From assembly GCA_947044365.1 (NCBI GenBank), contig OX345637.1, positions 9,113,076 through 9,177,075 of the forward strand: a stretch of DNA of 64,000 nt, written 5' to 3'. The translations under genes were made by a program, and so were the position numbers. Position 1 is the stretch's first letter. Each line of letters starts with the position of its first letter. This document shows, piece after piece, positions 26,801 through 47,702 of the stretch. Source of the DNA: Petrosia ficiformis (Eukaryota; Porifera; Demospongiae; Haplosclerida; Petrosiidae). The notes below the pieces were generated by a model. The model had not been told where the DNA came from. It saw only the letters and a list, made by a program, of their open reading frames with translations, and did no database searches.

Positions 26801-29800
26801 ATGGACAATTTTCATTTTAGTTAGTTATAGTTATTGCAATAGACTTGTAATTTAGTTATAGTTTAGTTAACGAAAAGTCATAATGCCTTACTAAAAGGGG
26901 TTTTTAGTTTTAGTCATAGTTAACTAAAACAACACTAGTTAAGGAATCATATTACACCTACAAGTGTAATGATGTCATAGAGAGCATGACAAGTTCTGTT
27001 GTATAATTATAAGTTAAACATGTGTTGTGTACATATTGATCATGTACATATCATTACCATGTATAACACATGGGAATTATAATATATGCTATATATAGTA
27101 CAAGCTATTTATAGTATCAACAACACTTCACCACATGTATGTACATACAAGATGTACTAGTCATCATGAAGTGAATTTTGTTTATTTGGACTAAGAATGT
27201 CCTAATATGGTAAACACCTGGTGACTATTGAGTAAACAGTTGATATACATGTAGTGTGTAAATAGATTACAGGAAATCATGACAGCACAAAAGCAAGTCA
27301 TGACATGTGCATGTACATGTAAATATGTAATTGGACTTACATCTGGTGACACTTCCCCGTCCTTCCTATTTGAGATAGAAATGAAAAGATAATACTAGAT
27401 TTAATTATTATAAACAAACAATTATCTATATTTCACTGAACTATACTTTATATGTGACACATCGTATTGACATGACTCACTTTTTTCCTGTGTAAAAAAA
27501 CGAACAGACAATCATAAATTGACAGTTGAATACAGGTATGTTAGAGTATTAGACTACAAAATTATTAGCTTGCAAATACACAAAAAAAAAATTTATAATT
27601 AATAATACTAAAAGTTTTCTGACCTTTTATAACACAGTAGATAACTATTATTGATACAATTGTAATCACAACCGCTGGTGATAATATTCCAATTACTATA
27701 CCGATAATAGCTCCAGGTTTAAGTCCTAGTAGAAGAAATTGTACATTATATAGTGTATGGTGTGTGTGTGTGTATGTATGTGTATGAGATTTTATGTGTA
27801 ATCATTATAGTGTACATTGCACAAGTACATGTATGTGCAAGAATTGAGTAGTGACAGAAAAAGACTTAGAATCATAATAATTATGATTCAAGAACAGCTG
27901 ACCTCCACTACTTTTAGATGAACTTGTAGTCATAGAACTGGTAGTAGAAGTAGCAGTAGAACCAGTAGTAGTAGGAGTAGGTGATATAACATTTGATGTA
28001 GTTGATGGGATCACTAGAGGAACACCTGAAATTGAAGAGAATATATTATAAATGTTACATGTATGTGAACTGTTACAGTTCTGCTTATAATCATTAGGGT
28101 GATAGTATTAATGGATAGTGATAATATTCTCATTAAATTATACTTACAAACTATCACTTCAGTAGCTATGTTGTTTCCTAACACATTTTCAGCAGACACA
28201 TTAATTGAGTAACATCTACCCTTCATTACATCTTCAATAAGATATGATGTAGTATCAGCTGGTAATATTTCATTAGAATTATCACTTCCATTATGAGTTA
28301 AGTAATAACTCAATATGGGTGGACGAGTAGACTGATCAGACTAAATAAATGATAACAAAAATGATATAGCAAAGAGGAACATATAAAGTAATTATTTCTT
28401 CACAGATGTTCATTTCTATTGATGGGTGGAGACAAAATTAATGTGGCCACAGACACTTTAATATTGTTCTTGAAATGAAGCCACTAGTTTGAATCAAACA
28501 CTATAAATGTTTAAAAACAAATTTTTATCTAATTATTCAAAGTGTTCTTATGGCATAGCCATAGGCCAGCCATCTATTTGTGATCATATTGTGAGACTTT
28601 TAAAGTTATTTGCTCAAAACGTTTTACTGCTACAGTACATCATAACTCAGTCAAATGTAGTACAGCAATAGTTTCTTGGCTGTGTTATACAAGATACTTT
28701 TGTATAACACAGTCTTAAAAGATAAAGAAAAAATATAGAAGGAAAAATAATCCCTATAATTGCTTGGTAAGTTACATTGTATTCTTCTTTGAAACACATA
28801 TTAATTATTATTTTTCTCTACAAAAGTAGTTTCACTACTTTTGTGGCAGTCTTTCAGTTAGATCCTTATCTACAAGTTGTCTTCTTCATGCTATTATGTA
28901 TTATTATCATCATTTACATGCCACACACATTAATTGATCACATCCACTGACTTCGTTAAATATGTGAAACTGACACAAGCTAATATAATTAATTGAGTGA
29001 TGCCCACCATAACAAGATCTATGTATGCTCTATGATCTTCATTGCTTGTTTGAATGCAACTTCAATAGACAGTTACAATATTTTCATATGCAATTCTTGC
29101 TTGATCAGGTTTACCCCTCTGATGATTATTATCTGTCTAGTTATAATATTATATAATTAACCACCACTGGGATGACCCTTTGGGACATAACAACAACTAT
29201 AAACCAACAGTTTGTTGTTGAATTAATCTTGTGATGGTACATTAGTATGGCAAAGATAGAAATGAATTCACTTCCTATATGTAGACCACATATTGCAAAA
29301 AAATTAAAGAAAAGACATTCTGCACTTACACTCCATGAGACACCTATGTTAGCGGTATTATTTGTACTACCATTGAACAGTTCATAATCTAACTCAAGAC
29401 TTGCTGGAACTGAAGAAGAGAATATTCACAATGGTATGCACATGTAGCTAACACACTTACCATCCAGTATGAACCACATAGAATCACTGTGTTGTCCAGT
29501 TCTATTAACACTATCAACAGCTGCTACACTAACACAATACTGTGTGGATGAATCATTAACTAGTACATCCAGTTTTACGCTGGTATCAATAGATGTGATG
29601 TCAGTATCACTAGTAGTTGAGTTAATAGTGTAACTTGTAACACACTGAGAAGAAACACCAGGAGGTGACCAGGATAGAACAACTGATGTAAGAGTATAAG
29701 AAGATAACATGAGGTTCAGAGGAGATGAGGGAATAGCTAAATAGAGAGAGAAAATGAAAGTAATTATTAATCAGTATTCCAGTAATCATACCTGCTATAT

Positions 29801-30231
29801 TGATGACACATTCTTTAATATCTACACTTGGTGTCTCACACTCTATAGTATAATCTCCAATACTTGATTGAACAGTGAATGATATGTTTGATATAAGAGG
29901 ATTAGTGTTGGATATCAGGACTGTACTGAAGTCAGTTGCACCATCTATGACACCAGAAACATTTTCTGTATCACCCGAGAGATATGGTCGTGTATCTAAT
30001 TCAGACATGGTCTCATCCCTTATCCTCCATCTAAGAGGTGAATCAGCTGTACACTGATACTCTACTTGTTGAGAAAGACATAGTTCTGCATCACAACTGA
30101 ACTCAACATTACCTACTACACCTGCATGAAAATAAATACAGTAATACAATATTATTTATATCATATAATAATGTTACTAACACACCACAAATAAACAAGC
30201 AAATCAGAACAAAACTCTTCAGTATAGACAT
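17569..30231 (-). CDS. Ig/FN3 receptor with ITIM/ITAM-like tail, 10 exons, 464 aa
   Basis: Minus-strand exons: 30186-30231, 29792-30121, 29461-29736, 29330-29409, 28148-28340, 27903-28025, 27624-27725, 27481-27487 (7 nt), 27341-27365 and 17569-17781. Phases fit throughout (1395 nt). The signal peptide is MSILKSFVLICLFICG. Ig spans to residue 125, FN3 126-217, linker to 244, FN3-like to 308, Ser/Thr stalk 309-349 and TM helix about 355-380. The tail holds ENYAEL (Y397), VQYSDI (Y427), NYAEL (Y438) and VEYSDV (Y458). VQYSDI and VEYSDV match the ITIM consensus. YSDI, seven residues, then YAEL matches ITAM spacing. Attachment of the last exon across a ~9.6 kb intron is inferred: its phase fits, the frame is conserved only if the 7-nt exon is included, and no competing exon was seen. 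The ectodomain nearly equals that of the gene at 30326. Likely a signalling receptor; ligand unknown. Confidence 0.68.
17791..17837. repeat. (GA)n microsatellite acting as a polypyrimidine tract
   Basis: On the minus strand this is an uninterrupted CT run ending just upstream of the acceptor TTCCAAACAG at 17782. It directly precedes the exon that encodes the ITIM/ITAM-like tail, so it occupies the position of the 3' splice-site pyrimidine tract. Confidence 0.85.
18735..18955. mobile_element. MITE copy with GTTTTTGATAAG-type ends
   Basis: Begins AGTTTTTGATATG and ends CTTATCAAAAAAAC, inverted to each other. The interior has the CATGGGCC and GGCCAATGGTACGCCATATG blocks shared with the copies at 20865-21073, 21127-21340 and, inverted, 25880-26010. 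A short CA/ACATGTACATC tract is inserted in it. It lies in the long last intron of the minus-strand receptor. Confidence 0.75.
18960..19542. repeat. (CATA)n / ACATGTACATA microsatellite
   Basis: A compound CATA-rich array with an internal higher-order duplication of about 260 bp. It is split by the hAT-like element at 19543-19993 and resumes at about 20002-20080. Reading frames across it are spurious. Confidence 0.9.
19543..19993. mobile_element. hAT-like non-autonomous element, 451 bp, perfect 8-bp TSD
   Basis: Ends CAGAGCTGGGTGGTATA and the inverted CATCGCCCAGCCCTG. The flanks are a perfect duplication, GTATATAC at 19535-19542 and again at 19994-20001. The CAG(A/G)GCTGGG terminus and 8-bp duplication are classic hAT features. 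The interior contains several CCGATAT/ATATCG motifs and no transposase. Confidence 0.88.
20420..20860. repeat. Degenerate (TATTAC)n tract
   Basis: Irregular TATTACTATTAC arrays with recurring CCTTAAAAATCAGTATATTAC blocks. A related inverted tract is at about 25460-25740, including GAGGTTTCTTTGAAATTCT (20738) matched inverted near 25645. These may be remains of one dispersed element. Confidence 0.7.
20857..21350. mobile_element. Two tandem copies of the GTTTTTGATAAG-ended MITE
   Basis: Bases 20865-21073 and 21127-21340 are almost identical, each followed by an ACTGTACCTCAGTATTTTAA segment and a TATTAC run. The repeated unit is therefore MITE plus microsatellite (about 263 bp), which suggests local unequal exchange or slippage rather than two insertions. 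Confidence 0.8.
21985..22290. repeat. TATACACAG minisatellite
   Basis: About thirty units of 9-12 bp (TATACACAG, TATACATAG, TATACCACAG) run in mixed order. The core GTATAC is palindromic. Located within the long intron of the minus-strand receptor. Confidence 0.9.
22300..25440. other. AT-rich intronic sequence, no gene recognised
   Basis: Apart from the small element at 22832-23018 and a tandem tract of ACTAATATACTAG at 23254-23322, nothing identifiable was seen. A 91-codon open frame at 24562 has no splice or domain support. Confidence 0.5.
22832..23018. mobile_element. CAGTGTTCT-ended small element
   Basis: Begins CAGTGTTCTACCCACACTGG and ends GGGCAGAACACTG, inverted. The same family is inserted in intron 6 of two receptor copies (32781-33052, 39972-40299), and a worn relative is near 3150-3260. 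The ends resemble hAT-type termini; no clear target duplication is visible here. Confidence 0.7.
25880..26012. mobile_element. Truncated inverted copy of the GTTTTTGATAAG-ended MITE
   Basis: Read on the minus strand it starts GAGTTTTTGATAGCATGGG and runs through CAATGGTTAGTGTGTG to CCAATGG. This matches 20865-21073 with an internal deletion. Confidence 0.65.
26641..26937. mobile_element. hAT-like element, 297 bp, perfect TIR and TSD
   Basis: Both ends read TAGTGTTGTTTTAGTT (16/16 inverted). The flanks are a perfect 8-bp duplication GTTAAGGA (26633-26640 and 26938-26945). The interior is a degenerate TTAGTT-rich sequence. A related TTAGTT-rich stretch is at 57605-57715. Confidence 0.9.
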
Positions 30232-30325: not shown

Positions 30326-33300
30326 ATGTTGTTGGAAATAGTGATTGTGTTTTGTCTCATTCAGTGTGAGAAATGTTGAAATATTATATATATATATATA
30401 TTATATATATATATTATATATATATATAATATTATATATATCTATATAATTATATATAATAATTATTTATAATTTATATATAATTATTATGTATATATAT
30501 ATATAATTATAATATTATAATAAAATTATATATAATTATAATAATTATTATAATTATAATTATTATAATTATTTATAACGTGCATAATTATTTTCGTTAC
30601 AATACAATACAGACTCTTCTGCGAATGTTGAGTTCAGTTGTGATGCAGAACTATGTCTTTCTCAACAAATAGAGTATCAGTGTACAGCTGATTCACCTCT
30701 TAGATGGAGGATAAGGGATGAGACCATGTCTGAATTAGATACACGACCATATCTCTCGGGTGATACAGAAAATGTTTCTGGTGTCATAGATGGTGCAACT
30801 GACTTCAGTACAGTCCTGATATCCAACACTAATCCTCTTATATCAAACATATCATTCACTGTTCAGTCAAATATTGAAGATTATACTATAGAGTGTGAGA
30901 CATCAGGTGTAGATATTAAAGAATGTGTCATCAATATAGCAGGTATGATTACTAGAATAGTGATTAATAATTACTTTCATTTTCTCTCTCTATTTAGCTA
31001 TTCCCTCATCTCCTCTGAACCTCATGTTATCTTCTTATACTCTTACATCAGTTGTTCTATCCTGGTCACCTCCTGGTGTTTCTTCTCAGTGTGTTACAAG
31101 TTACACTATTAACTCAACTACTAGTGATACTGACATCACATCTATTGATACCAGCGTAAAACTGGATGTACCAGTTAATCATGATTCATCCACACAGTAT
31201 TGTGTTAGTGTAGCAGCTGTTGATATTGTTAATAGAACTGGACAACACAGTGATTCTTTGTGGTTCATACTGGATGGTAAGTGTGTTAGCTACATGTACA
31301 TACCATTGTGAGTATTCTCTTCTTTAGTTCCAGCAAGTCTTGAAATAGAGTATGAACTGTTCAATGGTAGTACAAATAATACTGGTATCATACGTGTCTC
31401 ATGGAGTGTGAGTTGGTTGTAGGATACATTTTCCTTCATTCAGTTTGACAGAGCTATTATATAATCTCGTTATGTATTTTTAAATATGTATCAGAGAGCA
31501 CAATAAGTACTCTCTATGTAGGAATGGCCTAATAAAGAATGGTCACCTATACATTTCAATTGCAGTAGATCTGTCAAAATATCTTCTACAGAGAAATAAG
31601 AAACATATACCTTATATACTAGAACATTGCATTTATCGACTATGTAATAGTTCAAGCACTGCTCCAGTATATAAAGGATGTTTAATCCTTAGAGGTGTAA
31701 ATCCACCCATCTATCATATATTAAGTATATTAAAGACGTTCTGTGCATGTCACTATACATCATTGAAAAGTCAATGTTATGAGGTTTAAATATTATGTGC
31801 AGTTTGAACTGTTCCACCTGCTGAGTCAGCATGTAATATAACCCTCTAATAATGATTAAATTCCACCAGTGATGTGTCCTCTAATTAATTTAATGTACAA
31901 TGAAGAAGTAATTAGAAATTATGATCAATTAACTTTAGTAGCATACTTTTTAATCTTTTAAATGCTATCATTTATTTAGTCTGATCAGTCTACACGTCCA
32001 CCCATATTGAGTTATTACTTAACTCATAATGGAAGTGATAATTCTGATGAAATAACCATCAGTACTACATCATATCTTATTAAAGATGTAATGAAGGGTA
32101 GATGTTACTCAATTAGTGTATTTGCTGAAAATGTGTTAGGAAACAACACAGCTACTGAAGTGATAGTTTGTAAGTATAATTTAATGAGAATATTACCATT
32201 AATACTATCACCCTAATGATTATAAGTAGAACTACATGTATAACAGTTTGCATACATGTAACATGTAATATTCTTTTCAAATTACAGCTGTTCCTCCGGT
32301 GATCCCATCCACTTCATCAAATGTTATATCACCTACTTCTAGTACCACTTCTACTACCAGTTCTACTACCAGTTCTACTACCAGTTCTATGACTATAATT
32401 TCTTCAACATCCACACCAGGTAATGATGGTAAACTTTTCTTCAGTCCAATAGTGTATTAATATCATAGTTATTATATTATAATAACTATGATAATTATTA
32501 ATAGACTATTACTAATACAAAGGGATTGAGACACTATTACACTAATATAAATGTTTTGGAACACACTAGTATGTACTACTACTATATACTAAATTACTAA
32601 TACAAAGCAACTGACTTACAAATCATTTAATATTCTATATGCTACCATGGCAACTATTTGATGCAGCTAGGTATATATTTTGCACATAAAGATATAAGTT
32701 ATATAAACTTGTAGGGCTGAGGGGTATATCGACATGAACCTCTGAACACCAGTAGGTAGAATATCTGGCATATACACTTGCAGTGTTCTGCCCAGAATAT
32801 TTCGAGTGGTGGTTGGATTCTAGCTTGCATTTAGCACTGTTCATCCAGTTTATACTTAATACTATCTCAATAGCCTATAAATGTATTATCTGAGAGGTGG
32901 TTATAGAGGTGAATGGTTAATTCATCTAAGAGGTGGTTAATTCATCTGAGAGGTGGTTATAGAGGTGAATGATTAATTCATCTAAGAGGTGGTTAATTCA
33001 TCTGAGAGGTGGTTATTCCTGACCAGTGCCGACCAGTGTGGGCAGAACACTGAACATGGTTTATATAATACATGTATAATATTATATAGTGATTTTAAAC
33101 AAAGCAAGTTTTGATGAGGTGTGTATGCTCAATATATAGTGTATTTTCATTCACTATATACTAGTTTTTGTATGCACACACACAGTAAAACACAGAGGCA
33201 CACACACAGTAACACACAGAGTCACACACACACACACACATACATAGTCACACACACATATCACTCACAGCACAAACTCATACACATACACACACACACA

Positions 33301-33928
33301 CAGTTACATGCTATTATTGTTATTCCTCAGTGTGTTCTTCTTTCTTCACACCAGTAATACTAAGTGTTGTTTTGACATTCATACTAACAGCAGTAATCTC
33401 ATACATACCAAAATACATGCTAGTTATGTTGTTTTGAAAATACCTAATAACTTATAATAAATGAGGTAACAACTACCGGTTGAATAATCAATTCATATTT
33501 ACAATCTATATGTATGCTGTTCAGTTGTAAAGGTCAACAGTTTGATTATAATAGTGTCCATTGCTTTACCTGATATCCTCATGCTATAATACCAGCCTGC
33601 ATGTGTCTATAATGTGTCCATCTGGATACCTATGAACGCACGCACATCCTTCCTATTCTTTTATTATTCTTTTCCAGCTTGTACTTCTTACTCCACATCA
33701 ATAGTACTCAGTGTTGTTTTGACATTCATACTAACAGCAGTAATCTCAGTTATTATAAGTTCTCTAGTGACATTCCTCTGTACTAAAAGCTATTATTCAA
33801 AATCTCAGGAACCCAAACCTGTTGAACAGGTTCCAATGTATGAGGTTGTAGAGAACATACCTTCTATACCTCAAACCACTAACATGTCACTAACTACTAA
33901 TCCAGCGTATGGTCCTGTTCAACATTAG
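30326..33928 (+). CDS. Ig/FN3 receptor with NPxY tail, 7 exons, 433 aa
   Basis: Exons: 30326-30365, 30613-30942, 30998-31276, 31328-31407, 31980-32169, 32288-32419 and 33678-33928. All are GT-AG with matching phases (1302 nt). The signal peptide is MLLEIVIVFCLIQ. Ig spans to residue 123, FN3 124-216, linker to 243, FN3-like 244-306, Ser/Thr-repeat stalk 307-350 (TTSSTTSSTTSS) and TM helix about 359-385. The tail has MYEVV (Y405) and NPAY (425-428) near the C-terminus. NPxY is a known PTB-binding or endocytic motif. The ectodomain is almost identical to the inverted gene ending at 30231, but the TM and tail are unrelated. An AATAAA lies at 34163. Intron 6 contains an inserted element and a dead TM-exon copy. 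Confidence 0.82.
30375..30600. repeat. TA-rich low-complexity tract in intron 1
   Basis: Runs of TATATA and TAATTATAAT fill most of the first intron. The equivalent introns of the 37665 and 44907 genes are shorter (123 bp) but also TA-rich. Confidence 0.85.
32781..33052. mobile_element. CAGTGTTCT-ended element in intron 6, two 56-bp units
   Basis: Begins CAGTGTTCTGCCCAG and ends GGGCAGAACACTG. Its interior carries GAGGTGGTTAATTCATCT subrepeats. The copy in the next gene (39972-40299) is 56 bp longer, exactly one extra subrepeat unit. The gene at 44907 lacks the insertion: its sequence ATATACACATGG near 47245 is the uninterrupted site. Confidence 0.85.
33350..33410 (+). pseudogene. Decayed partial copy of the TM exon in intron 6
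   Basis: About 55 bp (GTGTTGTTTTGACATTCATA onward) duplicate the start of the real TM exon at 33678 but then diverge into CATACATACC. In the gene at 44907 the functional TM exon lies directly at this position, after the CA-repeat and TTATTCCTCAG. Here the working copy has been displaced about 320 bp downstream. Confidence 0.75.
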
Positions 33929-34284
33929 AAGGATTTTACAAAATGCATTTCACTTATTGTCATTGTTTTTTTCTTTAATAATTATAATAATTATTTTAAA
34001 ATTGATATCACTGTTGTATTTGCAGAATTTGGTTTTAATTCATTTATTTCTGTATGGAAATAGTTTTATGAATTTTAATTTTAGTTATACTAAACCTACT
34101 ATCAACCATTGTGGTTACTTGTATGTGTTTAATATAAATTATACCATATGTCAGGCAATACAAATAAACAATGTCCATCTGCTTTACATAATATATAATA
34201 ATCGTACATTCATGTTTTCTTATCATAACATGAAAATCCATATAAAATGACCATTGTTTATGTGTGTTATAAATTATTATCATG

Positions 34285-34440
34285 ATGTCTTCATGGCTGA
34301 ATACATTTCAGTCATTTTCTTGATATAGGTAAGATGTATTGTTCAAATCATTTTAACTAATAATTGTCTAATTTGTTCCCAGATAATGCATACATGAGTT
34401 TTTCTTATACAAGTTCAAATAAATTTTGTCCTATCGTGTT
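34285..34440 (+). pseudogene. 5' fragment of a receptor gene (signal exon and Ig start), decayed
   Basis: ATGTCTTCATGGCTGAATAC with a donor at 34329, then TTGTTCCCAGAT...AAATTTTGTCCTAT. This corresponds to the signal exon and first 55 nt of the Ig exon preserved at 35713-35873 and 50976 onward. It has an in-frame stop and a lost acceptor. Equivalent relics lie at 41534-41690 and 48083-48235. Confidence 0.65.
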
Positions 34441-35137
34441 CATCTTTGATTGCTCTTGAAATGTAGAAATATATTTTCATGAACAAGATTCTGATGTTTT
34501 AAAGATGATATCTGGCCATCTAGAAGGAATTGTTATGGTAAAACACGCGATCGATATCAAATGTTATGTGTGTATCAAAACGTACCTATATGTATTAACA
34601 GAGATTTCAGGTCATCACTTGCAATTAAATTTATGGCAGCCATTTTTTAAATCCAGGCCATCCCTATATAAGGAGTAGTACAATACTCTCTGATACAATG
34701 GAGATTATCACCTTTTATACATTCTACGATTAGAGATTTTGGAATATTAAACATTCTTGGGATGCATAATAATATTATATGTAAACAATGACTGTAATTA
34801 TTTACATGAATAATGCACAGTAGAAGTAAGGTAATTGTATGTATTCAGAATGTGTTGAACTATAGGATGACTCACAATAGGCCAATTATCATAACATAAG
34901 CACTTATGGTAAGAATATATAATCTATATAATGTAAGATGTTGAAAGTATTCAACTTCATATGGAATATAAGTAGATTATGACATACTATACAGAAAATA
35001 TGCAAGTCCTTACGTTGTGTTGATTGCCCTAGTGTGAATCAGCCTTAATAAATATGCACAAATATGTCAGAAGGTAACATGTACGGTATGTAATATGCAG
35101 TCAAATAATCCTAGCATAGGGATACAAGACTACGTAC

Positions 35138-37581
35138 CTGATCACTGTTATCATAAACAGGTTTTACCCCTCCGTGCACTGTAAAGAAAAAATACGTAGT
35201 ATTTTAATGTATGTGATAAACCTTAATTTGAACTCTATAATAAATTACAATAATAATGATCTCTCACTTGTTTCCTGTGAGAAAAGATAAATTGAAAGTA
35301 ATCATAATATATATATAAACATAATTTGTACTAACCTTTAACAACAAAGAAGATAATTATCCTAACCACTATAATGATCACTATGACAACAGCAATACCA
35401 GCAATAGCAATAGCACCACCAGGACTTTGGTTGCTAATGAATTAGATATGATTATAATGCAAACAATATCATCTTTAAAACACTTCTACAGATTATCGGA
35501 TAATTGGTAGGTCAGTAGAGGTGTTGTAACAGGTAATTCTGGTAATGTAAAATTAGAAGGAGAAATCCAATATCTGGGAATGAGCTGAAAACATCATTAC
35601 CATAATCACAGTTAAAATGTGTAAAGACTATCTTACCTATAGCAAGAGAGAAACTGTGATATTCATTAAATTGTAGGTGTGGTTCAGAAATAAATTAAAG
35701 TGGGAGTTAATCATGACTTCTGCATGGATTTTCTTTGTTATTTTCAGTTATTCTTTCGACATAGGTAAGAAATACAATTCTTAACATTATATTATTTTAA
35801 TTTGTGACAATTTTTTAGTTTATTCCCAGATATTGGATTTCTCCTGTACAAGTTCGACTATATTTTGTCCTAGGCATAGCCATAGGCCAGCTATCTATCT
35901 GTGATCATATTGTGAGACTTTTAAAGTTATTTGCTCAAAATGTTTTACTGCTACAGTACATCATAACTCAGTCAAAATAAACAAATGTAGTACAGCAATA
36001 GTTTCTTGGCTGTGTTATACAAGATACTTTTGTATAACACAGTCTTAAAAGATAAAGAAAAAAATAAAGAAGGAAAAAGAATCCCTATAATTGCTTGGTA
36101 GTTACATTGTATTCTTCTTTCTGAATTGAAACACATATTAATTATTATTTTCCGCTACAAAAGTAGTTTCACTACTTCTGTGTCAGTCTTTCATCTAGAT
36201 CAATATCTACAAGTTGTCTTCTTCATGCTATTATGTATTATTATCATTAGCTCATCATTTACATGCCACACACATTAATTAATCACATCCACTGACTGCA
36301 TTAAATATGTGAAACTGACACAAGCTAATATAATTAAGTGAGTGATCCCCACCATAAACAGATCTATGTATGCTCTATGATCTTGATTGCTTGTTTGAAT
36401 GCAACTTCAATAGACAGTTACAATATTTTCATATGCAATTCTTGCTTGATCAGGCTTGCCCCTCTGATGATTATCATCTGTCTAGTTATAATTAACCATC
36501 ATAGTGATGACCCGTTGGGACATAACAACAACTATAAACCAACAGTTGGTTGTTGAATTAATCTTGTGATGGTACATTAGTATGGCAAAGATAGGAATGA
36601 ATTCACTTCCTACATGTAGTTACATGTATTTACCACATATTGCAAAAAAGAAAAGACATTCCACACTTACACTCCATGAGACACCTATGTTACCGGAATT
36701 ATTTGTACTACCATTGAACAGTTCATAATCTAACTCAAGACTTGATGGAACTGAAAAAAAAATACTCATAATGGTATTTACATAACTAACACACTTACCA
36801 TCCAGTATGAACCACATAGATTCACTGTGTTGTCCAGTTCTATTAACAATATCAACAGCTGCTACACTAACACAATACTGTGTGGATGAATCATGATTAA
36901 CTGGTACATCCAGTGTTACACTGGTATCAGTAGATGTGATCTCAGTATCACTAGTAGTTGAGTTAATAGTGTAATTTGTAACACACTGAGAAGAAACACT
37001 AGGAGGTGACCAGGATAGAATAACTGATGTAAGAGTATAAGAAGATAACAAGAGATTCAGAGGAGATGAAGGAATAGCTAAATAGAGAGGAAAATGAAAG
37101 TAAATTATTAATCATTATTCTAGTAATCATACCTGCTATATTGATGACACATTCTTTACTATCTACACCTGATGTCTCACACTCTATAGTATAATCTCCA
37201 ATATTTGACTGAACAGTGAATGATATGTTTGATATAAGAGGATTAGTGTTGGATATCAGGACTGTACTGATGTCAGGTGCACCATCTATGTCAGCAGAAA
37301 TATTTACTGTATCACCTGAGAGATATGATTGTGTATCTAATTCAGACATGGTCTCATCACTTATCCTCCATCTAAGAGATGCACCAGCTGTACACTGATA
37401 CTCTACTTGTTGAGAAAGACAAAAATCTGCATCACAACTGAACTCAACATTACCTACCACACCTGCATGAAAATAAATACATGCAGTAATATAATATTAT
37501 TTATATATATATAATAATAATACTAACACACCACAAATAAACAAGCAGATCAGAACAAAACACCTCAGTGTATATATACAT
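35138..37581 (-). pseudogene. Inverted receptor copy, chimeric and probably non-functional
   Basis: Minus-strand exons with good splice sites: Ig 37133-37462, FN3 36799-37077, linker 36671-36750. The signal exon (37532-37581) has a 4-nt gain that puts its ATG out of frame; an in-frame alternative start would be at 37721, inside the opposite gene. The second FN3 and stalk exons are missing. Instead, at about 35873 the copy switches to foreign sequence holding an opposite-strand signal exon (35713). It is followed by a TM exon (35336-about 35433, AIAIAGIAVVIVIIIVV) and a tail exon 35138-35178 (HGGVKPVYDNSDQ). The TM exon is 2 nt out of register with its relatives. The Ig and FN3 exons are intact and diverged from their neighbours, so it could still donate sequence by gene conversion. 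Confidence 0.62.
35713..35873 (+). pseudogene. Isolated intact signal exon plus truncated Ig exon
   Basis: ATG at 35713 encodes MTSAWIFFVIFSYSFDI with donor GTAAG at 35765. Acceptor TTTTTTAG at 35818 starts an Ig exon (VYSQILDFSCTSSTIFCP) that stops abruptly at about 35873, where it joins sequence homologous to the first pair's intron (28540 region). The same arrangement is repeated at 42962-43122. It is the best-preserved 5' end of the gene type whose body is at 50976-53354. Confidence 0.72.
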
Positions 37582-37664
37582 CTCCTTCGAAAAATGGCTC
37601 CTTTGCTAATAATTTTTAAGGGGCGTTGCCTAGTCCGTAGGTGCAGGTGCCGCCCCTTCGCAAA
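37582..37664. promoter_or_regulatory. 83-bp divergent start region with GC-box-like palindrome
   Basis: Contains AAGGGGCG (37618-37625) and its inverse CGCCCCTT (37651-37658) flanking a 25-bp spacer. This is one of the few GC-rich spots in the window. It lies between the inverted copy's old start (37579-37581) and the plus-strand ATG (37665). The 44824-44906 region is nearly identical. A bidirectional promoter is inferred. Confidence 0.55.
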
Positions 37665-40600
37665 ATGTTGAAAGTAGTGCTTGTGTTCTGTCTCATTCAG
37701 CGTGAGAAAATTATGTTGCATCTGTAAAATATAGCTATATAATATAATTATATATTATATATTAGTATATATTAAGTATATTAAAGTATTTAGTAATATC
37801 ATAATTATTTTCATTACAATACAGACTCTTCTGCGAATGTTGAGTTCAGCTGTGATGCAGAACTTTGTCTTTCTCAACAAGTAGAGTATCAGTGTACAGC
37901 TGATTCACCTCTTAGATGGAGGATAAGTGATGAGACCATGTTTGAATTAGATTCACGACCATATCTATCAGGTGATACAGTAAATATTCCTGGTATCATA
38001 TCAGGTGCACCTGACTTCAGTACAGTTCTGATATCAAGCACTAATCCTCTTATATCAAACATATCATTCACTGTTCAGTCAAGAATTGAAGATTATATTA
38101 TAGAGTGTGAGACACCAGGTGTAGATAGTAAAGAATGTGTCATCAATATAGGAGGTATGATTACTAGAATAGTGATTAATAATTACTTTCATTTTCTCTC
38201 TTTATTTAGCTATTCCCTCATCTCCATGGAATCTCTTGTTATCTTCTTATACTCTTACATCAGTTATTCTATCCTGGTCACCTCCTAGTGTTTCTTCTCA
38301 GTGTGTTATAAGTTACACTATTAACTCAACTACTAGTGATACTGAGATCACATCTACTGATACCAGTGTAACACTGGATGTACCACTTAATCATGATTCA
38401 TCCTCACAGTATTGTGTTAGTGTAGCAGCTGTTGATATTGTTAATAGAACTGGGCAACACAGTGAATCTATGTGCTTCATACTGGACGGTAAGTGTGTTA
38501 GTCACATGTATACACCATTGTGAGTATTCTCTTTTTTAGTTCCAGGAAGTCTTGAGTTAGATTATGAACTGTTCAATGGTAGTACAAATAATACTGTTAA
38601 TATAGGTGTCTCATGGAGTGTGAGTTGGTTGTGGCATACATTTTCCTTCATTCAGTTTGACAGAGCTATTATATAATCTCGTTATGTATTTTTAAATATG
38701 TATCAGAGAGCACAATAAGTACTCTCTATGTAGGAATGGCCTAATAAAGAATGGTCACCTATACATTTCAATTGCAGTAGATCTGTCAAAATATCTTCTA
38801 CAGAGAAATAAGAAACATATACCTTATATACTAGAACATTGCATTTATTGACTATGTAATAGTTAAAGCACTGCTCCAGTATATAAAGGATGTTTAATCC
38901 TTAGAGGTGTTAATCCACCCATCTATCATATATTAAGTATATTAAAGTAGGTTCTGTGCATGTCACTATACATCATTGAAAAGTCAATGTTATGAGGTTT
39001 AAATATTATGTGCAGTTTGAACTGTTCCACCTGCTGAGTCAGCATGTAATATAACCCTATAATAATGATTAAATTCCACCAGTGATGTGTCCTCTAATTA
39101 ATTTAATGTACAATGAAGAAGTAATTAGAAATTATGATCAATTAACTTTAGTAGCATACTTTTTAATCTTTTAAATGCTATCATTTATTTAGTCTGATCA
39201 GTCTACACGTCCACCCATATTGAGTTATTACTTAACTCATAATGGAAGTGATAATTCTAATGAAATAGCCATCAATACTACATCATATCTTATTGAAGAT
39301 TTAATGAAGGGTAGATGTTACTCAATTAGTGTATTTGCTGAAAATGTGTTAGGAAACAACACAGCTACTGAAGTGATAGTTTGTAAGTATAATTTAATGA
39401 GAATATTACCATTAATACTATCACCCTAATGATTATAAGTAGAACTACATGTATAACAGTTTGCATACATGTAACATGTAATATTCTTTTCAAATTACAG
39501 CTGTTCCTTCGGTGATCCCATCCACTTCATCAAATGTTATATCACCTACTACTCTTACTACCAGTTCTACTACCAGTTCTATGACTATAATTTCTTCAAC
39601 ATCCACACCAGGTAATGATGATAAACTTTTCTTCAGTCCAGTAGTGTATTAATATCATAGTTATTATATTATAATAACTATGATAATTATTAATAGACTA
39701 TTACTAATACAAAGGGATTGAGACACTATTACACTAATATAAATGGTTTAGAACACACTAGTATGTACTACTACTATGTACTAATTACTAATACAAAGGG
39801 ACTGACTTACAAATCATTTAATATTCTATATGCTACCATGGCAACTATTTGATGCAGCTAGGTATATATTTTGCACATAAAGATATAAGTTATATAAACT
39901 TGTAGGGCTGAGGGGTATATCGACATGAACCTCTGAACACCAGTAGGTAGAATATCTGGCATATACACTTGCAGTGTTCTGCCCAGAATATTTCGAGTGG
40001 TGGTTGGATTCTAGCTTGCATTTAGCACTGTTCATCCAGTTTATACTTAATACTATCTCAATAGCCTATAAATGTATTATCTGAGAGGTGGTTATAGAGG
40101 TGAATGGTTAATTCATCTAAGAGGTGGTTAATTCATCTGAGAGGTGGTTATAGAGGTGAATGATTAATTCATCTAAGAGGTGGTTAATTCATCTGAGAGG
40201 TGGTTATAGAGGTGAATGATTAATTCATCTAAGAGGTGGTTAATTCATCTGAGAGGTGGTTATTCCTGACCAGTGCCGACCAGTGTGGGCAGAACACTGA
40301 ACATGGTTTATATAATACATGTATAATATTATATAGTGATTTTAAACAAAGCAAGTTTTGATGAGGTGTGTATGCTCAATATATAGTGTATTTTCATTCA
40401 CTATATACTAGTTTTTGTATGCACACACACAGTAAAACACAGAGTCACACACACAGTAACACATAGAGTCACACACACACACACACATACATAGTCACAC
40501 AGACATATCACTCACAGCACAAACTCATACACATACACACACACACACAGTTACATGCTATTATTGTTATTCCTCAGTGTGTTCTTCTTTCTTCACACCA

Positions 40601-41177
40601 GTAATACTAAGTGTTGTTTTGACATTCATACTAACAGCAGTAATCTCATACATACCAAAATACATGCTAGTTATGTTGTTTTGAAAATACCTAATAACTT
40701 ATAATAAATGAGGTAACAACTACCGGTTGAATAATCAATTCATATTTACAATCTATATGTATGCTGTTCAGTTGTAAAGGTCATAACAGTTTGATTATAA
40801 TAGTGTCCATTGCTTTACCTGATATCCTCATGCTATAATACCAGCCTGCATGTGTCTATAATGTGTCCATCTGGATACCTATGAACGCACGCACATCCTT
40901 CCTATTCTTTTATTATTCTTTTCCAGCTTGTACTTCTTACTCCACATCAATAGTACTCAGTGTTGTTTTGACATTCATACTAACAGCAGTAATCTCAGTT
41001 ATTATAAGTTCTCTAGTGACATTCCTCTGTACTAAAAGCTATTATTCAAAATCTCAGGAACCCAAACCTGTTGAACAGGTTCCAATGTATGAGGTTGTAG
41101 AGAACATACCTTCTATACCTCAAACCACTAACATGTCACTAACTACTAATCCAGCGTATGGTCCTGTTCAACATTAG
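37665..41177 (+). CDS. Ig/FN3 receptor with NPxY tail, 7 exons, 425 aa
   Basis: Exons: 37665-37701, 37825-38154, 38210-38488, 38540-38619, 39193-39382, 39501-39611 and 40927-41177 (1278 nt, phases consistent). The signal peptide is MLKVVLVFCLIQ, followed by Ig, FN3, linker, FN3-like, a Ser/Thr stalk shortened relative to the 30326 gene, TM and the same MYEVV...NPAYGPVQH tail. The last exon is identical in protein to that of 30326-33928. The Ig exon differs from the 44907 gene only at replacement sites. The second copy of the CAGTGTTCT element (39972-40299) and the dead TM-exon fragment (about 40600-40660) are in intron 6. Confidence 0.83.
39972..40299. mobile_element. CAGTGTTCT-ended element in intron 6, three 56-bp units
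   Basis: Same insertion as 32781-33052 at the equivalent position, with one additional 56-bp subrepeat. This is a copy-number change since the block was duplicated. Confidence 0.85.
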
Positions 41178-41533
41178 AAGGATTTTACAAAATGCATTTC
41201 ACTTATTGTCATTGTTTTTTTCTTTAATAATTATAATAATTATTTTAAAATTGATATCACTGTTGTATTTGCAGAATTTGGTTTTAATTCATTTATTTCT
41301 GTATGGAAATAGTTTTATGAATTTTAATTTTAGTTATACTAAACCTACTATCAACCATTGTGGTTACTTGTATGTGTTTAATATAAATTATACCATATGT
41401 CAGGCAATACAAATAAACAATGTCCATCTGCTTTACATAATATATAATAATCGTACATTCATGTTTTCTTATCATAACATGAAAATCCATATAAAATGAC
41501 CATTGTTTATGTGTGTTATAAATTATTATCATG

Positions 41534-41690
41534 ATGTCTTCATGGCTGAATACATTTCAGTCATTTTCTTGATATAGGTAAGATGTATTGTTCAAATCAT
41601 TTTAACTAATAATTGTCTAATTTGTTCCCAGATAATGCATACATGAGTTTTTCTTTTACAAGGTCAAATACATTTTGTCCTATCGTGTTC
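41534..41690 (+). pseudogene. Decayed 5' receptor fragment, second copy
   Basis: Copy of 34285-34440 within the tandem block, differing by a few bases (TTTTACAAGGTCAAATACATT). It has the same in-frame stop and lost acceptor. Confidence 0.62.
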
Positions 41691-42386
41691 ATCTTTGATT
41701 GCTCTTGAAATGTAGAAATATATTTTCATGAACAAGATTCTGATGTTTTAAAGATGATATCTGGCCATCTAGAAGGAATTGTTATGGTAAAACACGCGAT
41801 CGATATCAAATGTTATGTGTGTATCAAAACGTACCTATATGTATTAACAGAGATTTCAGGTCATCACTTGCAATTAAATTTATGGCAGCCATTTTTTAAA
41901 TCCAGGCCATCCCTATATAAGGAGTAGTACAATACTCTCTGATACAATGGAGATTATCACCTTTTATACATTCTACGATTAGAGATTTTGGAATATTAAA
42001 CATTCTTGGGATGCATAATAATATTATATGTAAACAATGACTGTAATTATTTACATGAATAATGCACAGTAGAAGTAAGGTAATTGTATGTATTCAGAAT
42101 GTGTTGAACTATAGGATGACTCACAATAGGCCAATTATCATAACATAAGCACTTATGGTAAGAATATATAATCTATATAATGTAAGATGTTGAAAGTATT
42201 CAACTTCATATGGAATATAAGTAGATTATGACATACTATACAGAAAATATGCAAGTCCTTACGTTGTGTTGATTGCCCTAGTGTGAATCAGCCTTAATAA
42301 ATATGCACAAATATGTCAGAAGGTAACATGTACGGTATGTAATATGCAGTCAAATAATCCTAGCATAGGGATACAAGACTACGTAC

Positions 42387-44823
42387 CTGATCACTGTTAT
42401 CATAAACAGGTTTTACCCCTCCGTGCACTGTAAAGAAAAAATACGTAGTATTTTAATGTATGTGATAAACCTTAATTTGAACTCTATAATAAATTACAAT
42501 AATAATGATCTCTCACTTGTTTCCTGTGAGAAAAGATAAATTGAAAGTAATCATAATATATATATAAACATAATTTGTACTAACCTTTAACAACAAAGAA
42601 GATAATTATCCTAACCACTATAATGATCACTATGACAACAGCAATACCAGCAATAGCAATAGCACCACCAGGACTTTGGTTGCTAATGAATTAGATATGA
42701 TTATAATGCAAACAATATCATCTTTAAAACACTTCTACAGATTATCGGATAATTGGTAGGTCAGTAGAGGTGTTGTAACAGGTAATTCTGGTAATGTAAA
42801 ATTAGAAGGAGAAATCCAATATCTGGGAATGAGCTGAAAACATCATTACCATAATCACAGTTAAAATGTGTAAAGACTATCTTACCTATAGCAAGAGAGA
42901 AACTGTGATATTCATTAAATTGTAGGTGTGGTTCAGAAATAAATTAAAGTGGGAGTTAATCATGACTTCTGCATGGATTTTCTTTGTTATTTTCAGTTAT
43001 TCTTTCGACATAGGTAAGAAATACAATTCTTAACATTATATTATTTTAATTTGTGACAATTTTTTAGTTTATTCCCAGATATTGGATTTCTCCTGTACAA
43101 GTTCGACTATATTTTGTCCTAGGCATAGCCATAGGCCAGCTATCTATCTGTGATCATATTGTGAGACTTTTAAAGTTATTTGCTCAAAATGTTTTACTGC
43201 TACAGTACATCATAACTCAGTCAAAATAAACAAATGTAGTACAGCAATAGTTTCTTGGCTGTGTTATACAAGATACTTTTGTATAACACAGTCTTAAAAG
43301 ATAAAGAAGGAAAAAGAATCCCTATAATTGCTTGGTAGTTACATTGTATTCTTCTTTCTGAATTGAAACACATATTAATTATTATTTTCCGCTACAAAAG
43401 TAGTTTCACTACTTCTGTGTCAGTCTTTCATCTAGATCAATATCTACAAGTTGTCTTCTTCATGCTATTATGTATTATTATCATTATTATCATCATTTAC
43501 ATGCCACACACATTAATTGATCACATCCACTGACTTCGTTAAATATGTGAAACTGACACAAGCTAATATAATTAAGTGAGTGATCCCCACCATAAACAGA
43601 TCTATGTATGCTCTATGATCTTGATTGCTTGTTTGAATGCAACTTCAATAGACAGTTACAATATTTTCATATGCAATTCTTGCTTGATCAGGCTTGCCCC
43701 TCTCATGATTATCATCTGTCTAGTTATAATTAACCATCATAGTGATGACCCGTTGGGACATAACAACAACTATAAACCAACAGTTGGTTGTTGAATTAAT
43801 CTTGTGATGGTACATTAGTATGGCAAAGATAGGAATGAATTCACTTCCTACATGTAGTTACATGTATTTACCACATATTGCAAAAAAGAAAAGACATTCC
43901 ACACTTACACTCCATGAGACACCTATGTTACCGGTATTATTTGTACTACCATTGAACAGTTCATAATCTAACTCAAGACTTGATGGAACTGAAAAAAAAT
44001 ACTCATAATGGTATTTACATAACTAACACACTTACCATCCAGTATGAACCACATAGAATCACTGTGTTGTCCAGTTCTATTAACACTATCAACAGCTGCT
44101 ACACTAACACAATACTGTGTGGATGCATCATGATTAACTGGTACATCCAGTGTTACACTGGTATCAGTAGATGTGATCTCAGTATCACTAGTAGTTGAGT
44201 TAATAGTGTAATTTGTAACACACTGAGAAGAAACACTAGGAGGTGACCAGGATAGAATAACTGATGTAAGAGTATAAGAAGATAACAAGAGATTCAGAGG
44301 AGATGAAGGAATAGCTAAATAGAGAGAAAAATGAAAGTAAATTATTAATCATTATTTTAGTAATCATACCTGCTATATTGATGACACATTCTTTACTATC
44401 TACACCTGATGTCTCACACTCTATAGTATAATCTCCAATATTTGACTGAACAGTGAATGATATGTTTGATATAAGAGGATTAGTGTTGGATATCAGGACT
44501 GTACTGATGTCAGGTGCACCATCTATGTCAGCAGAAATATTTACTGTATCACCTGAGAGATATGATTGTGTATCTAATTCAGACATGGTCTCATCACTTA
44601 TCCTCCATCTAAGAGATGCACCAGCTGTACACTGCACTGATACTCAACTTGTTGAGAAAGACAAAAATCTGCATCACAACTGAACTCAACATTACCTACC
44701 ACACCTGCATGAAAATAAATACATGCAGTAATATAATATTATATATATATATATAATAATAATACTAACACACCACAAATAAACAAGTAGATCAGAACAA
44801 AACACCTCAGTGTATATATACAT
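42387..44823 (-). pseudogene. Inverted receptor copy with a 5-nt frameshift
   Basis: Tandem copy of 35138-37581. Minus-strand segments are signal 44774-44823, Ig 44370-44704, FN3 44036-44314, linker 43909-43988, then the same chimeric TM and tail region. The Ig exon is 335 nt instead of 330: a duplicated CACTG at about 44634-44638 shifts the frame just after the first Ig cysteine. With the out-of-frame start and missing FN3-2 and stalk exons, it cannot encode the receptor. Confidence 0.72.
42962..43122 (+). pseudogene. Isolated signal exon plus truncated Ig exon, second copy
   Basis: Essentially identical to 35713-35873, with the same breakpoint into inverted-copy intron sequence. Confidence 0.7.
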
Positions 44824-44906
44824 CTCCTTCGAAAAATGGCTCCTTTGCTAATAATTTTTAAGGGGCGTTGCCTAGTCCGTAGGTGCAGGTGCCGCCCCTT
44901 CGCAAA

Positions 44907-47702
44907 ATGTTGAAAGTAGTGCTTGTGTTCTGTCTCATTCAGCGTGAGAAAATTATGTTGCATCTGTAAAATATAGCTATATAATATAATTATATATTAT
45001 ATATTAGTATATATTAAGTATATTAAAGTATTTAGTAATATCATAATTATTTTCATTACAATACAGACTCTTCTGCGAATGTTGAGTTCAGCTGTGATGC
45101 AGAACTTTGTCTTTCTCAACAAATAGAGTATCAGTGTACAGCTGATTCACCTCTTAGATGGAGGATAAGGGATGAGACCATGTCTGAATTAGATACACGA
45201 CCATATCTATCAGGTGATACAGTAAATCTTTCTGGTGTCATAGATGGTGCACCTGACTTCAGTACAGTTCTGATATCAAGCACTAATCCTCTTATATCAA
45301 ACATATCATTCACTGTTCAGTCAAGTATTGGAGATTATATTATAGAGTGTGAGACACCAGATGTAGATAGTAAAGAATGTGTCATCAATATAGGAGGTAT
45401 GATTACTAGAATAGTGATTAATAATTACTTTCATTTTCTCTCTTTATTTAGCTATTCCCTCATCTCCATGGAATCTCTTGTTATCTTCTTATACTCTTAC
45501 ATCAGTTATTCTATCCTGGTCACCTCCTAGTGTTTCTTCTCAGTGTGTTATAAGTTACACTATTAACTCAACTACTAGTGATACTGAGATCACATCTACT
45601 GATACCAGTGTAACACTGGATGTACCACTTAATCATGATTCGTCCTCACAGTATTGTGTTAGTGTAGCAGCTGTTGATATTGTTAATAGAACTGGGCAAC
45701 ACAGTGAATCTATGTGCTTCATACCGGACGGTAAGTGTGTTAGTCACATGTATACACCATTGTGAGTATTCTCTTTTTTAGTTCCAGGAAGTCTTGAGTT
45801 AGATTATGAACTGTTCAATGGTAGTACAAATAATACTGGTAATATAGGTGTCTCATGGAGTGTGAGTTGGTTGTGGCATACATTTTCCTTCATTCAGTTT
45901 GACAGAGCTATTATATAATCTCGTTATGTATTTTTAAATATGTATCAGAGAGCACAATAAGTACTCTCTATGTAGGAATGGCCTAATAAAGAATGGTCAC
46001 CTATACATTTCAATTGCAGTAGATCTGTCAAAATATCTTCTACAGAGAAATAAGAAACATATGCCAGAACATTGCATTTATTCACTATGTAATAGTTCAA
46101 GCACTGCTCCAGTATATAAAGGATGTTTAATCCTGAGAGGTGTTAATCCACCCATCTATCATATATTAAGTATATTAAAGGACAGAGGAGGTTCTGTGCA
46201 TGTCACTATACATCATTGAAATGTTAATGTTATGAGGTTTAAATATTATGTGCAGCTTGAACTGTTCTACCTGCTGAGTCAGCATGTAATATAACCCTCT
46301 AATAATGATTAAATTCTACCAGTGATGTGTGCACAACCTCCTCTAATTAATGGAGTACACATTTAATGTACAATGAAAAAGCAATTAGAAGTTATGATCA
46401 AATAACTTTAGTAGATTAATCTTTTAATGCTATGAATAATTTTGTTATCATTTATTTAGTCTGATCAGTCTACTCGTCCACCCATATTGAGTTATTACTT
46501 AACTCATAATGGAAGTGACGATTCTGATGAAATAGCCATCAATACTACATCATATCTTATTGAAGATGTAATGAAGGGTAGATGTTACTCAATTAGTGTG
46601 TTTGCCGAAAATGTGTTAGGAAACAACACAGCTACTGAAGTGATAGTTTGTAAGTATAGTTTAATGAGAATATTATCACTATCCATTAATACTATCACCC
46701 TAATGATTATAAGTAAACAGTAACAGTTTGCATACATTTAAACATGTAATATTCTTTTAAAATTACAGCTGTTCCTCTGGTGATCCCATCAACTTCATCA
46801 AATGTTATATCACCTACTACTCTTACTACCAGTTCTATGACTATAGTTTCTTCAACATCCATACCAGGTAATGATGGTAAACTTTTATTCAGTCCAATAG
46901 TGTATTAATATCATAGTTATTATAATAACTATGATAAATAATTATTAATAGACTATTACTAATAAAAAGGGACTGAGACACTATTACACTAATATAAATG
47001 TTTGGGAACACACTAGTATGTACTACTACTATATACTAATTACTAATACAAAGGGTCTGACTTACAAATCATCTAATATTAACAATATATATATATGTTG
47101 TATACTATGCTACCGTGGCAATTATTTGATGTGGCTAGGTGCATATTTTGCACATAAAGATATAATAATTATATAAACTTGTAGGGCTGAGGGGTATATC
47201 AACACAAACTTCTGAACACCAGCAGGTGGAATATCTGGCATATACACATGGTTTATAATACATGTATAATATTATTATACTGTTATTTTAAACAAAACAA
47301 TTTTTGATGAGGTGTGTATGCTCATATTGTGTATTTTCATTCACTACTAGTTTTTGTATGCACACACACAGTAACACACACACATACATAGTAACACACA
47401 CACACACACACACAGTTACATGCTATTATTCTTATTCCTCAGCATGTGCTTCTTGCTCCACATCAATAGCTCTCAGTGTTGTTTTGACATTCATACTAAC
47501 AGCAGTAATCTCAGTTATTATAAGTTCTCTAGTGACATTCCTCTGTACTAAAAGTTATTCAAAATCTCAGGAACCCAATATACAATCAAAACCTGTTGAA
47601 CAGGTTCCAATGTATGAGGTTGTAGAGAACATACCTTCTAATCCTCAAACGACTAACATGTCACTAACTACTAATCCAGCATATGGTCCTGTTCAACATT
47701 AA
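44907..47702 (+). CDS. Ig/FN3 receptor with NPxY tail, 7 exons, 424 aa
   Basis: Exons: 44907-44943, 45067-45396, 45452-45730, 45782-45861, 46460-46649, 46769-46867 and 47443-47702 (1275 nt, phases consistent). The domain order is as in the genes at 30326 and 37665. The stalk is the shortest of the three. The tail has a small insert (NIQS) before KPVEQVPMYEVV and ends NPAYGPVQH. Intron 6 lacks the CAGTGTTCT insertion, and the TM exon follows the CA repeat directly, so this copy keeps the older exon layout. One FN3-exon change replaces a Leu by Pro (FIPDG). Confidence 0.83.

Follow-up and report, generated by a model that had tools for sequence, protein, structure and literature searches.

Shuffled variants and probable diversifying selection at the predicted binding surface of V-set receptors from paired, head-to-head sponge genes

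Why should one exon of two recently duplicated genes carry dense differences when the introns on both sides of it are identical? The question is raised by a 64,000-nt stretch of the genome of the haplosclerid sponge Petrosia ficiformis (assembly GCA_947044365.1, contig OX345637.1, forward-strand positions 9,113,076 to 9,177,075; hereafter the window), which holds part of an array of putative receptor genes with a predicted immunoglobulin (Ig) domain followed by fibronectin type III (FN3) domains. Used as a DNA query against the whole assembly, the Ig exon gave 14 matches among the best candidates scored, all on contig 2 at 9142867–9291845; they correspond to 14 near-identical Ig–FN3 copies that form seven head-to-head pairs and span 149 kb. 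We named the pairs p1 to p7 and added m or p for the minus or plus strand, so that the exons in question belong to p2p and p3p; coordinates above 64000 run on into the 130-kb right flank of the window. On the basis of a single haplotype of one specimen, and of its genome sequence alone, we propose with a probability of roughly 0.65 that shuffled variants and diversifying selection act on the predicted binding face of a V-set receptor family encoded by these paired genes.

Dense change in the Ig exon of two recent copies

A preliminary description of the window had listed 13 base differences in 11 codons between the Ig exons of p2p and p3p, all of them replacements. Ungapped comparison confirmed this list (offsets 56, 103, 117, 128, 161, 164, 170, 176–178, 259, 264 and 294; V/I, S/R, F/S, S/T, I/L, P/S, I/V, S/D, R/S, E/G and G/D), with no codon differing silently only. 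The alignment revealed no comparable intronic divergence, introns 1 (0/123) and 2 (0/55) being identical as originally described, and the first FN3 exon differs at two of 279 bases, one silent and one replacement. Along the aligned blocks, the Ig exon carries 13 differences in 330 bases versus 25 in 5,586 elsewhere in 32885–38800 (Fisher P = 6e-8, or 3e-6 when 11 events are counted instead of 13 bases). Within the near-identical stretch 37655–38619 alone, the contrast is 13/330 versus 3/635 for the rest (P = 1e-4). The density of change, rather than the lack of silent changes, is thus the strong part of the observation. What did not hold was the treatment of the 7.24-kb aligned block as a single uniform copy. 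The tandem blocks A and B (Table 1) are 96.9% identical by self-BLAST, with 38 differences from 32885 to ~38800 and ~4–9% divergence beyond, because the 3′ half of p2p is nearest to the upstream gene p1p (30.3–33.9 kb).

The minus-strand partners p2m and p3m lie in the same duplicated blocks and are probably dead, to judge from a shift of four bases after the ATG and ahead of the signal peptide (noted by eye, and in p4m as well), a frameshift in p3m and the missing matches to the second half of the second FN3 domain and to the linker, neither of which was found in p2m or p3m; they can therefore serve as a control. Their Ig exons differ at one of 330 bases, silently, and by a 5-base indel (P = 0.0017 versus 13/330), which speaks against a local mutation hotspot. 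In a second recent pair, p5p and p7p, the Ig exons differ at 36/330 bases (~31 replacement, 5 silent), introns 4–6 at 10/1,136 and the tail at 1/249. An excess of replacement change over intron change also extends to the exon for the second half of the second FN3 domain (FN3b2): p1p and p2p differ there and in the linker at 9/301 bases, all replacements, versus 17/1,947 in introns 4–6 (P = 0.005), and p5p and p7p differ in FN3b2 at 8/190 versus the 10/1,136 of introns 4–6 (P = 0.002). Three close comparisons together, which were picked after seeing the data, contain 5 silent changes among 56, versus 26% expected (P = 0.001).

Mosaic copies, site tests and predicted fold

Most p2p/p3p variants look shuffled rather than new. 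Of the 13 differing sites, 10 show the two states among the other 12 copies as well, the frameshifted p3m and p6p included, versus 9.2% expected for random change (P = 1e-8); by codon, states are shared at 8 of 11 (P = 7e-7). The three-base GAT-to-TCA codon swap recurs in p7p, and only offsets 117, 259 and 294 are private. Larger imports are visible in segment comparisons of six of the seven plus genes (p4p was left out for its insertion). These identify p2p as a chimera, p3p-like up to ~38.62 kb and nearest to p1p beyond, with p1p/p2p differences of 0/118 in intron 5, 10/1,257 in intron 6 and 0/251 in the tail. The p5p Ig exon is 99% identical to that of its head-to-head neighbor p5m, while p5p is nearer to the plus type before the acceptor and after the first half of the second FN3 domain; p1p shows the same ectodomain import with p1m. 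Judged by these patterns, a whole ectodomain stretch was plainly imported from the head-to-head neighbor in p5p and p1p, and the copies are evidently mosaics. Import of tracts is well documented here.

Selection was assessed with site models in our own implementation, which assume a tree. The frameshifted p3m and p6p were left out of the codon tables, site models and segment counts, which are thus based on 12 of the 14 copies; further runs of the site model additionally omitted p2p, p2p and p3p, or p4p, and the first four Ig-exon codons were excluded because plus and minus genes differ there. In the codon-based test that had been suggested at the outset, M2a was favored over M1a (twice the log-likelihood difference, 2dlnL, 18.7), assigning omega 3.8 to ~20% of codons, and M8 was favored over M7 (19.7). 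Posterior support under M8 exceeded 0.9 for codons 45, 48, 55, 56, 57, 59, 88, 97 and 102 and was 0.90 for codon 86. Without p2p and p3p, the test value was still 16.8. Since recombination inflates such tests, we did not use the nominal chi-square P value alone and simulated null sets without positive selection, each 4-codon block having its own shuffled tree: 12 recombining nulls gave up to 14.9 and 59 more up to 12.3, so that the real value lies above 71 of 71, while 12 nulls without recombination gave up to 2.3. The site test thus stands, with nominal P values that come out too small.

Tree-free counts point in the same direction. Replacements, unlike silent changes (P = 0.44), cluster at codons 39–60 (32/70, P = 4e-4). 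Codons 66–85 contain three replacement versus seven silent changes, and in four of five homologous arrays located on other contigs no segment varies less than this one. Moreover, the other 10 copies with an intact frame show variation at 10 of the 11 codons that differ between p2p and p3p, compared with 52 variable codons out of 105 in these copies (P = 0.004). Diversifying selection is supported by these results, resting on tests that recombination weakens. The preliminary description had offered diversifying selection or imported tracts; the 10 shared sites and the site test support both, acting together and not as alternatives.

Structure prediction for the Ig exon gave a V-set fold, a beta sandwich in V-type strand order with C′ and C″, whose best matches were T-cell-receptor V domains. 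The label ‘Ig’ accordingly draws its support from the predicted fold and finds none in Pfam, where no Ig model matches the exon and the p2p Ig exon returned zero families. Across 79 family members, C2-set_2 matched six (best E = 0.029) and I-set and Ig_3 one each (0.12). The profile built from these 79 rows, hand-picked mainly for coverage from the 120 best of 162 homologs, had no match in a sequence search of the PDB; the whole protein had 28 at E ≤ 1, with the best stretches from residue 102 on, the FN3 part. Sequence models miss the domain, and the predicted fold supports a V-set Ig. Mapped onto this model, eight of the 10 selected codons fall on the C–C′–C″ plus FG–G side, and the other two map to the EF turn, so that strands D and E are free of them (side enrichment P = 0.013, the side having been defined after seeing the data). 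That the Ig domain is a recognition surface would follow from the predicted V-set fold together with these positions.

Explanations and their weight

The sequence shows that blocks A and B stem from a recent tandem duplication and that p2p combines a p3p-like front with a p1p-like back. In some pairs (p1, p5), ectodomain stretches were copied between opposite genes, with signal peptides and membrane/tail exons staying type-specific. The differences between p2p and p3p look mostly like variants of other copies, acquired via short conversion-like exchanges, plus the three private ones. As the statistics suggest, selection would keep replacements in three places of the V domain, its C′–C″–D edge, its EF turn and its FG end, with the D–E part and the tail remaining nearly unchanged. 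By analogy, the Ig domain may bind a partner that varies, in all likelihood one of allogeneic or microbial origin, and conversion could both renew variety and keep the two receptors of a pair matched.

Several results weigh against this combination of shuffling and selection. For 11 events without a silent one, plain site counts give P = 0.063, and allowing for transition bias gives 0.034; at P values of only 0.03–0.06 we rejected the silent count alone as proof of selection. When all 91 pairs among the 14 copies are pooled, pN/pS amounts to 0.92 for the Ig exon and 0.72 for FN3 with no gene-wide excess, so that ‘replacement only’ stands for p2p/p3p and fails as a rule of the array. Six close pairs summed give 35 replacement and nine silent changes, near the neutral 3.5:1, and the replacement-to-silent contrast between codons 34–65 (38:6) and the remaining codons (32:13) does not by itself reach significance (P = 0.12). 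The inflation of the site test reaches 14.9 in the nulls, the simulated sets were fitted with fewer optimizer steps than the real set, and the value of 9.7 for the first FN3 exon lies within the range of the recombining nulls. When p2p and p3p are left out, the positions at which they differ make up one of six sites at P > 0.9 and four of 12 at P > 0.5. The peak at codons 34–65 is not clearly repeated in the five homologous arrays, where 39, 9, 19, 22 and 64 of 96 circular shifts are as high. As for import, none of the 12 other copies qualified as a single donor for the p2p differences, the required tracts would measure ~10–15 bases and the PHI test detects recombination at the 20-base range only (P = 0.005–0.02; at 40–80 bases, P = 0.13–0.42); because no copy matches p2p over the whole run, tracts are short or donors unassembled. 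In p5p/p7p, introns 1–3 differ at 32/196 bases versus the 36/330 of the Ig exon (P = 0.08); since these introns are as diverged and the Ig exon is an import, we rejected this pair as an independent replicate. Lastly, the Ig exons of p7m and p7p, at 12.1% divergence, are the least alike of the seven head-to-head pairs.

Some of these points would suit a neutral mosaic, in which recurrent conversion from diverged paralogs drops tracts into the Ig exon without selection for variety. The pooled pN/pS, the flat within-exon contrast and the high recombining nulls speak for it, as do the 10 shared sites, the chimeric p2p, the ectodomain imports of p5p and p1p, and p5p/p7p as a case where import alone can yield such an excess. 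Imports should, however, bring proportionate silent differences, and the 5 of 56 found fall well below 26%; in addition, replacements cluster where silent changes do not, the pseudogene-like partners in the same blocks differ at 1/330 and all 71 recombining nulls are surpassed, which makes the purely neutral account unlikely. Positive selection on new point mutations after the duplication, without tract import, would explain the missing donor, the weakness of PHI beyond 20 bases and the positive site models, but has to accommodate 10 of 13 sites that reuse states of other copies, a three-base codon swap among them, and imported stretches that are plain elsewhere in the array; we regard it as improbable.

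About as improbable, in our assessment, is an assembly artifact in which a single locus is represented by its two haplotypes, placed in tandem as blocks A and B, or in which copies were merged. The 7.2-kb block comes near the average length of the HiFi reads, ~10.5 kb as calculated from yields, and 13 haplotypic duplications were removed during curation, according to the genome report (PMC12648040); the same report gives an assembly QV of 62.8. Proteins of several array copies are also on record from a 4.3-Mb contig, the 3′ parts of the blocks are unlike each other, p2p there matching p1p instead, and even between alleles the Ig excess would remain, as allelic diversity. Finally, the genes could be decaying and the Ig exon drifting under lost constraint: frameshifts are present in p3m and p6p, the shifted signal peptide in p2m, p3m and p4m, and a long insertion in p4p. 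This is scarcely credible for p2p and p3p, whose reading frames stay open for 425 and 424 codons and whose splice sites fit the consensus, given also the tail counts of 0/251 and 1/249, the excess of silent over replacement changes at codons 66–85 and the expectation that drift alone should not outpace intron divergence.

Gene layout and comparison with known systems

The seven exons of p2p encode the parts of a putative single-pass receptor, in order a short signal peptide, the Ig domain, an FN3 domain, a second FN3 domain on two exons, a Ser/Thr-rich linker, and the membrane span with the tail; Pfam recognizes two FN3 stretches in the spliced protein. The open layouts of p3p and p7p are the same. 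Read from the Ig exon onward, p1p and p5p are open too; a start and leader are present before p1p, and none was found where we looked upstream of p5p.

Table 1 Features of the array in the window.
Feature	Positions	Strand	Content or remark	Basis
Tandem block A	32885..40130		3′ end of p1p, p2m, p2p up to intron 6	Self-BLAST and alignment
Tandem block B	40131..47247		3′ end of p2p, p3m, p3p up to intron 6	Self-BLAST and alignment
p2p exon 1	37665..37701	+	Short signal peptide MLKVVLVFCLIQ	Splice sites, open frame
p2p Ig (V-set) exon	37825..38154	+	First compared exon	Predicted structure, exon call
p2p first FN3 exon	38210..38488	+		Two fn3 stretches in spliced protein, exon call
p2p second FN3, first half	38540..38619	+		Exon call
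p2p second FN3, second half	39193..39382	+		Exon call
p2p linker	39501..39611	+	Ser/Thr-rich	Exon call
p2p transmembrane and cytoplasmic tail exon	40927..41177	+	With stop	
p3p exon 1	44907..44943	+	Signal peptide	
p3p Ig (V-set) exon	45067..45396	+	Second compared exon	
p3p first FN3 exon	45452..45730	+		
p3p second FN3, first half	45782..45861	+		
p3p second FN3, second half	46460..46649	+		
p3p linker	46769..46867	+		
p3p transmembrane and tail exon	47443..47702	+		
p1p Ig exon	30613..30942	+		
p1p first FN3 exon	30998..31276	+		
p1p transmembrane and tail exon	33678..33928	+		
p2m Ig exon	37133..37462	-	Head-to-head partner of p2p; probable pseudogene	
p2m first FN3 exon	36799..37077	-		
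p3m Ig exon	44370..44704	-	Twin of p2m, with 5-base duplication (frameshift)	
p3m first FN3 exon	44036..44314	-		
p1m Ig exon	29792..30121	-	98% identical to head-to-head partner p1p	
p1m first FN3 exon	29461..29736	-		
p1m signal peptide	30175..30231	-	MSILKSFVLICLFICGVLV, unlike that of plus genes	
p1m transmembrane exon	27619..27726	-	Minus type, unlike plus type	

The plus-type membrane/tail exon (33678, 40927, 47443 and on to 184772) has 16 long matches in 194 kb; it outnumbers the plus Ig exon, so that this tail may also serve other ectodomains. In p1p and p2p, the membrane exon in use is preceded by a second, truncated copy (33333–33431 and 40580–40678), which we read as an alternative or relic exon. 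A further type, PGGAIAIAGIAVVIVIIIVVRIIIFFVVKG, with Arg within the hydrophobic run, occurs on the minus strand at 35334–35426 and 42583–42675 and in ~16 minus-strand copies over 194 kb. Just 5′ of the p2p and p3p start codons, between the divergent genes, are G+C-rich hairpins of the form AAGGGGCG...CGCCCCTT (37618–37658 and 44860–44900; folding z = -2.6 for p2p), variants of which, read by eye, precede p1p, p4p, p6p and p7p. In p4p, the Ig-to-FN3 stretch measures 1,450 bases (83119–84568, right flank) versus 48–56 in other copies; this insertion next to the Ig exon has probably disrupted p4p. Intron 6 of p2p contains a 56-base tandem repeat (3.3 copies at 99%, 40079–40263), and a long ACACAG-type tandem array at 15463–16439, a simple repeat, has long open frames on both strands. 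Neither an Rfam scan of 26–48 kb nor a search of a plasmid collection gave a match.

With one protein as query, the assembly yielded at least 107 matches, mostly to FN3 and some to Ig, mainly clustered on contig 2 (7.29–7.33, 9.14–9.83 and 10.10–10.13 Mb), with others on contig 14 (3.33–3.40 Mb); the array seems to be part of a much larger receptor region. Among proteins on record, P0005, P0006 and P0011 are extra variants from short contigs; in P0011, the C′–C″ stretch is largely different and the D–E part unchanged, and such variants suggest further diversity. The published literature that we searched, with most subscription journals outside its reach, contained no report of this receptor family.

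Head-to-head partners resemble each other in the ectodomain. Their Ig exons diverge by 5.6% from each other versus 8.6% from members of other pairs, and only 13 of 5,040 re-pairings are as close (3 of 720 without p3; 64 of 5,040 for FN3). In the ectodomain tree, partners are sisters in p1, p4, p5 and p6 (support 100, 98, 100 and 85) and not in p2, p3 and p7. Conversion that keeps ectodomain exons of partners alike is accordingly clear in p1 and p5, indicated by the tree for p4 and p6, and not seen in p2, p3 and p7. In the sequence that precedes the Ig exon, likeness is 53% between partners but 85% among the minus genes. Signal peptides and membrane exons of minus genes differ from the plus type, the minus-type membrane exon being found behind p1m, p4m, p5m, p6m and p7m; near-identical ectodomains are thereby combined, in one cluster, with different membrane exons. 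Partner-like ectodomains with type-specific upstream and membrane parts suggest that ectodomain exons move between opposite genes while leader and membrane keep their type. The array would in this respect work like paired receptors; we do not call it one, as opposing signal motifs define that class. The plus-tail tyrosines, read by eye as PMYEVV and NPAYGPV, do not appear to fit the immunoreceptor tyrosine-based inhibition motif (ITIM). Only tentatively do we entertain a germline paired-receptor system that evolved in Porifera, at the base of animals, in which divergent V-set/FN3 genes with different tails have their ligand-binding exons matched by conversion across the inverted repeat and their C′–C″–FG face diversified by selection, for KIR/CEACAM-like recognition of allogeneic cells or microbes.

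Genes for self/non-self and symbiont recognition in sponges are not settled, and on sequence evidence the array is a concrete candidate. The sponge Geodia cydonium reportedly has a polymorphic receptor tyrosine kinase with variable Ig-like domains, like our array a sponge receptor and unlike it a kinase, for which we know of no head-to-head array. Beyond sponges, the sea urchin Sp185/333 proteins are not known to have an Ig fold. A grafting study of Amphimedon inferred a polymorphic system but did not find aggregation-factor or adhesion genes significantly enriched (PMC5450542). In the Sp185/333 account (PMC5103432), clustered immune genes with mosaic exons, for which recombination or conversion is proposed, parallel the array, but they encode effector proteins of another kind and include hardly any pseudogenes. 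Closer in domain type are the Hydractinia Alr genes, which, compared by their description in PMC11067881, are clustered single-pass IgSF genes with pseudogenes and an Ig fold confirmed by structure prediction; allele sharing at Alr1/Alr2 controls allorecognition there. Primate CEACAM1/3/5/6 share with the array an outer V-type domain under positive selection and recurrent gene conversion among clustered paralogs, with bacterial adhesins as the proposed driver (PMC8860441). Xenopus CEACAM paired receptors (PMC5112662) likewise have an outer V-type Ig domain on its own exon, partner genes opposite in orientation, and converted ligand-binding exons in which silent changes are nearly absent and replacements lie on the CC′C″FG face. 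The sponge array differs in its non-vertebrate host, in two FN3 domains after the Ig domain, in conversion that also covers the first FN3 exon, in partner Ig exons placed head to head at 0.36–0.67 kb, and in tails where plus-strand tyrosines but no ITIM or activation motif (ITAM) were identified. If our reading is true, it would suggest that evolution of the paired-receptor kind extends beyond vertebrates. The shuffling of domain pieces between neighboring copies and the unusually fast change of an exposed face seem to resemble, by analogy, what is seen in vertebrate immune recognition receptors.

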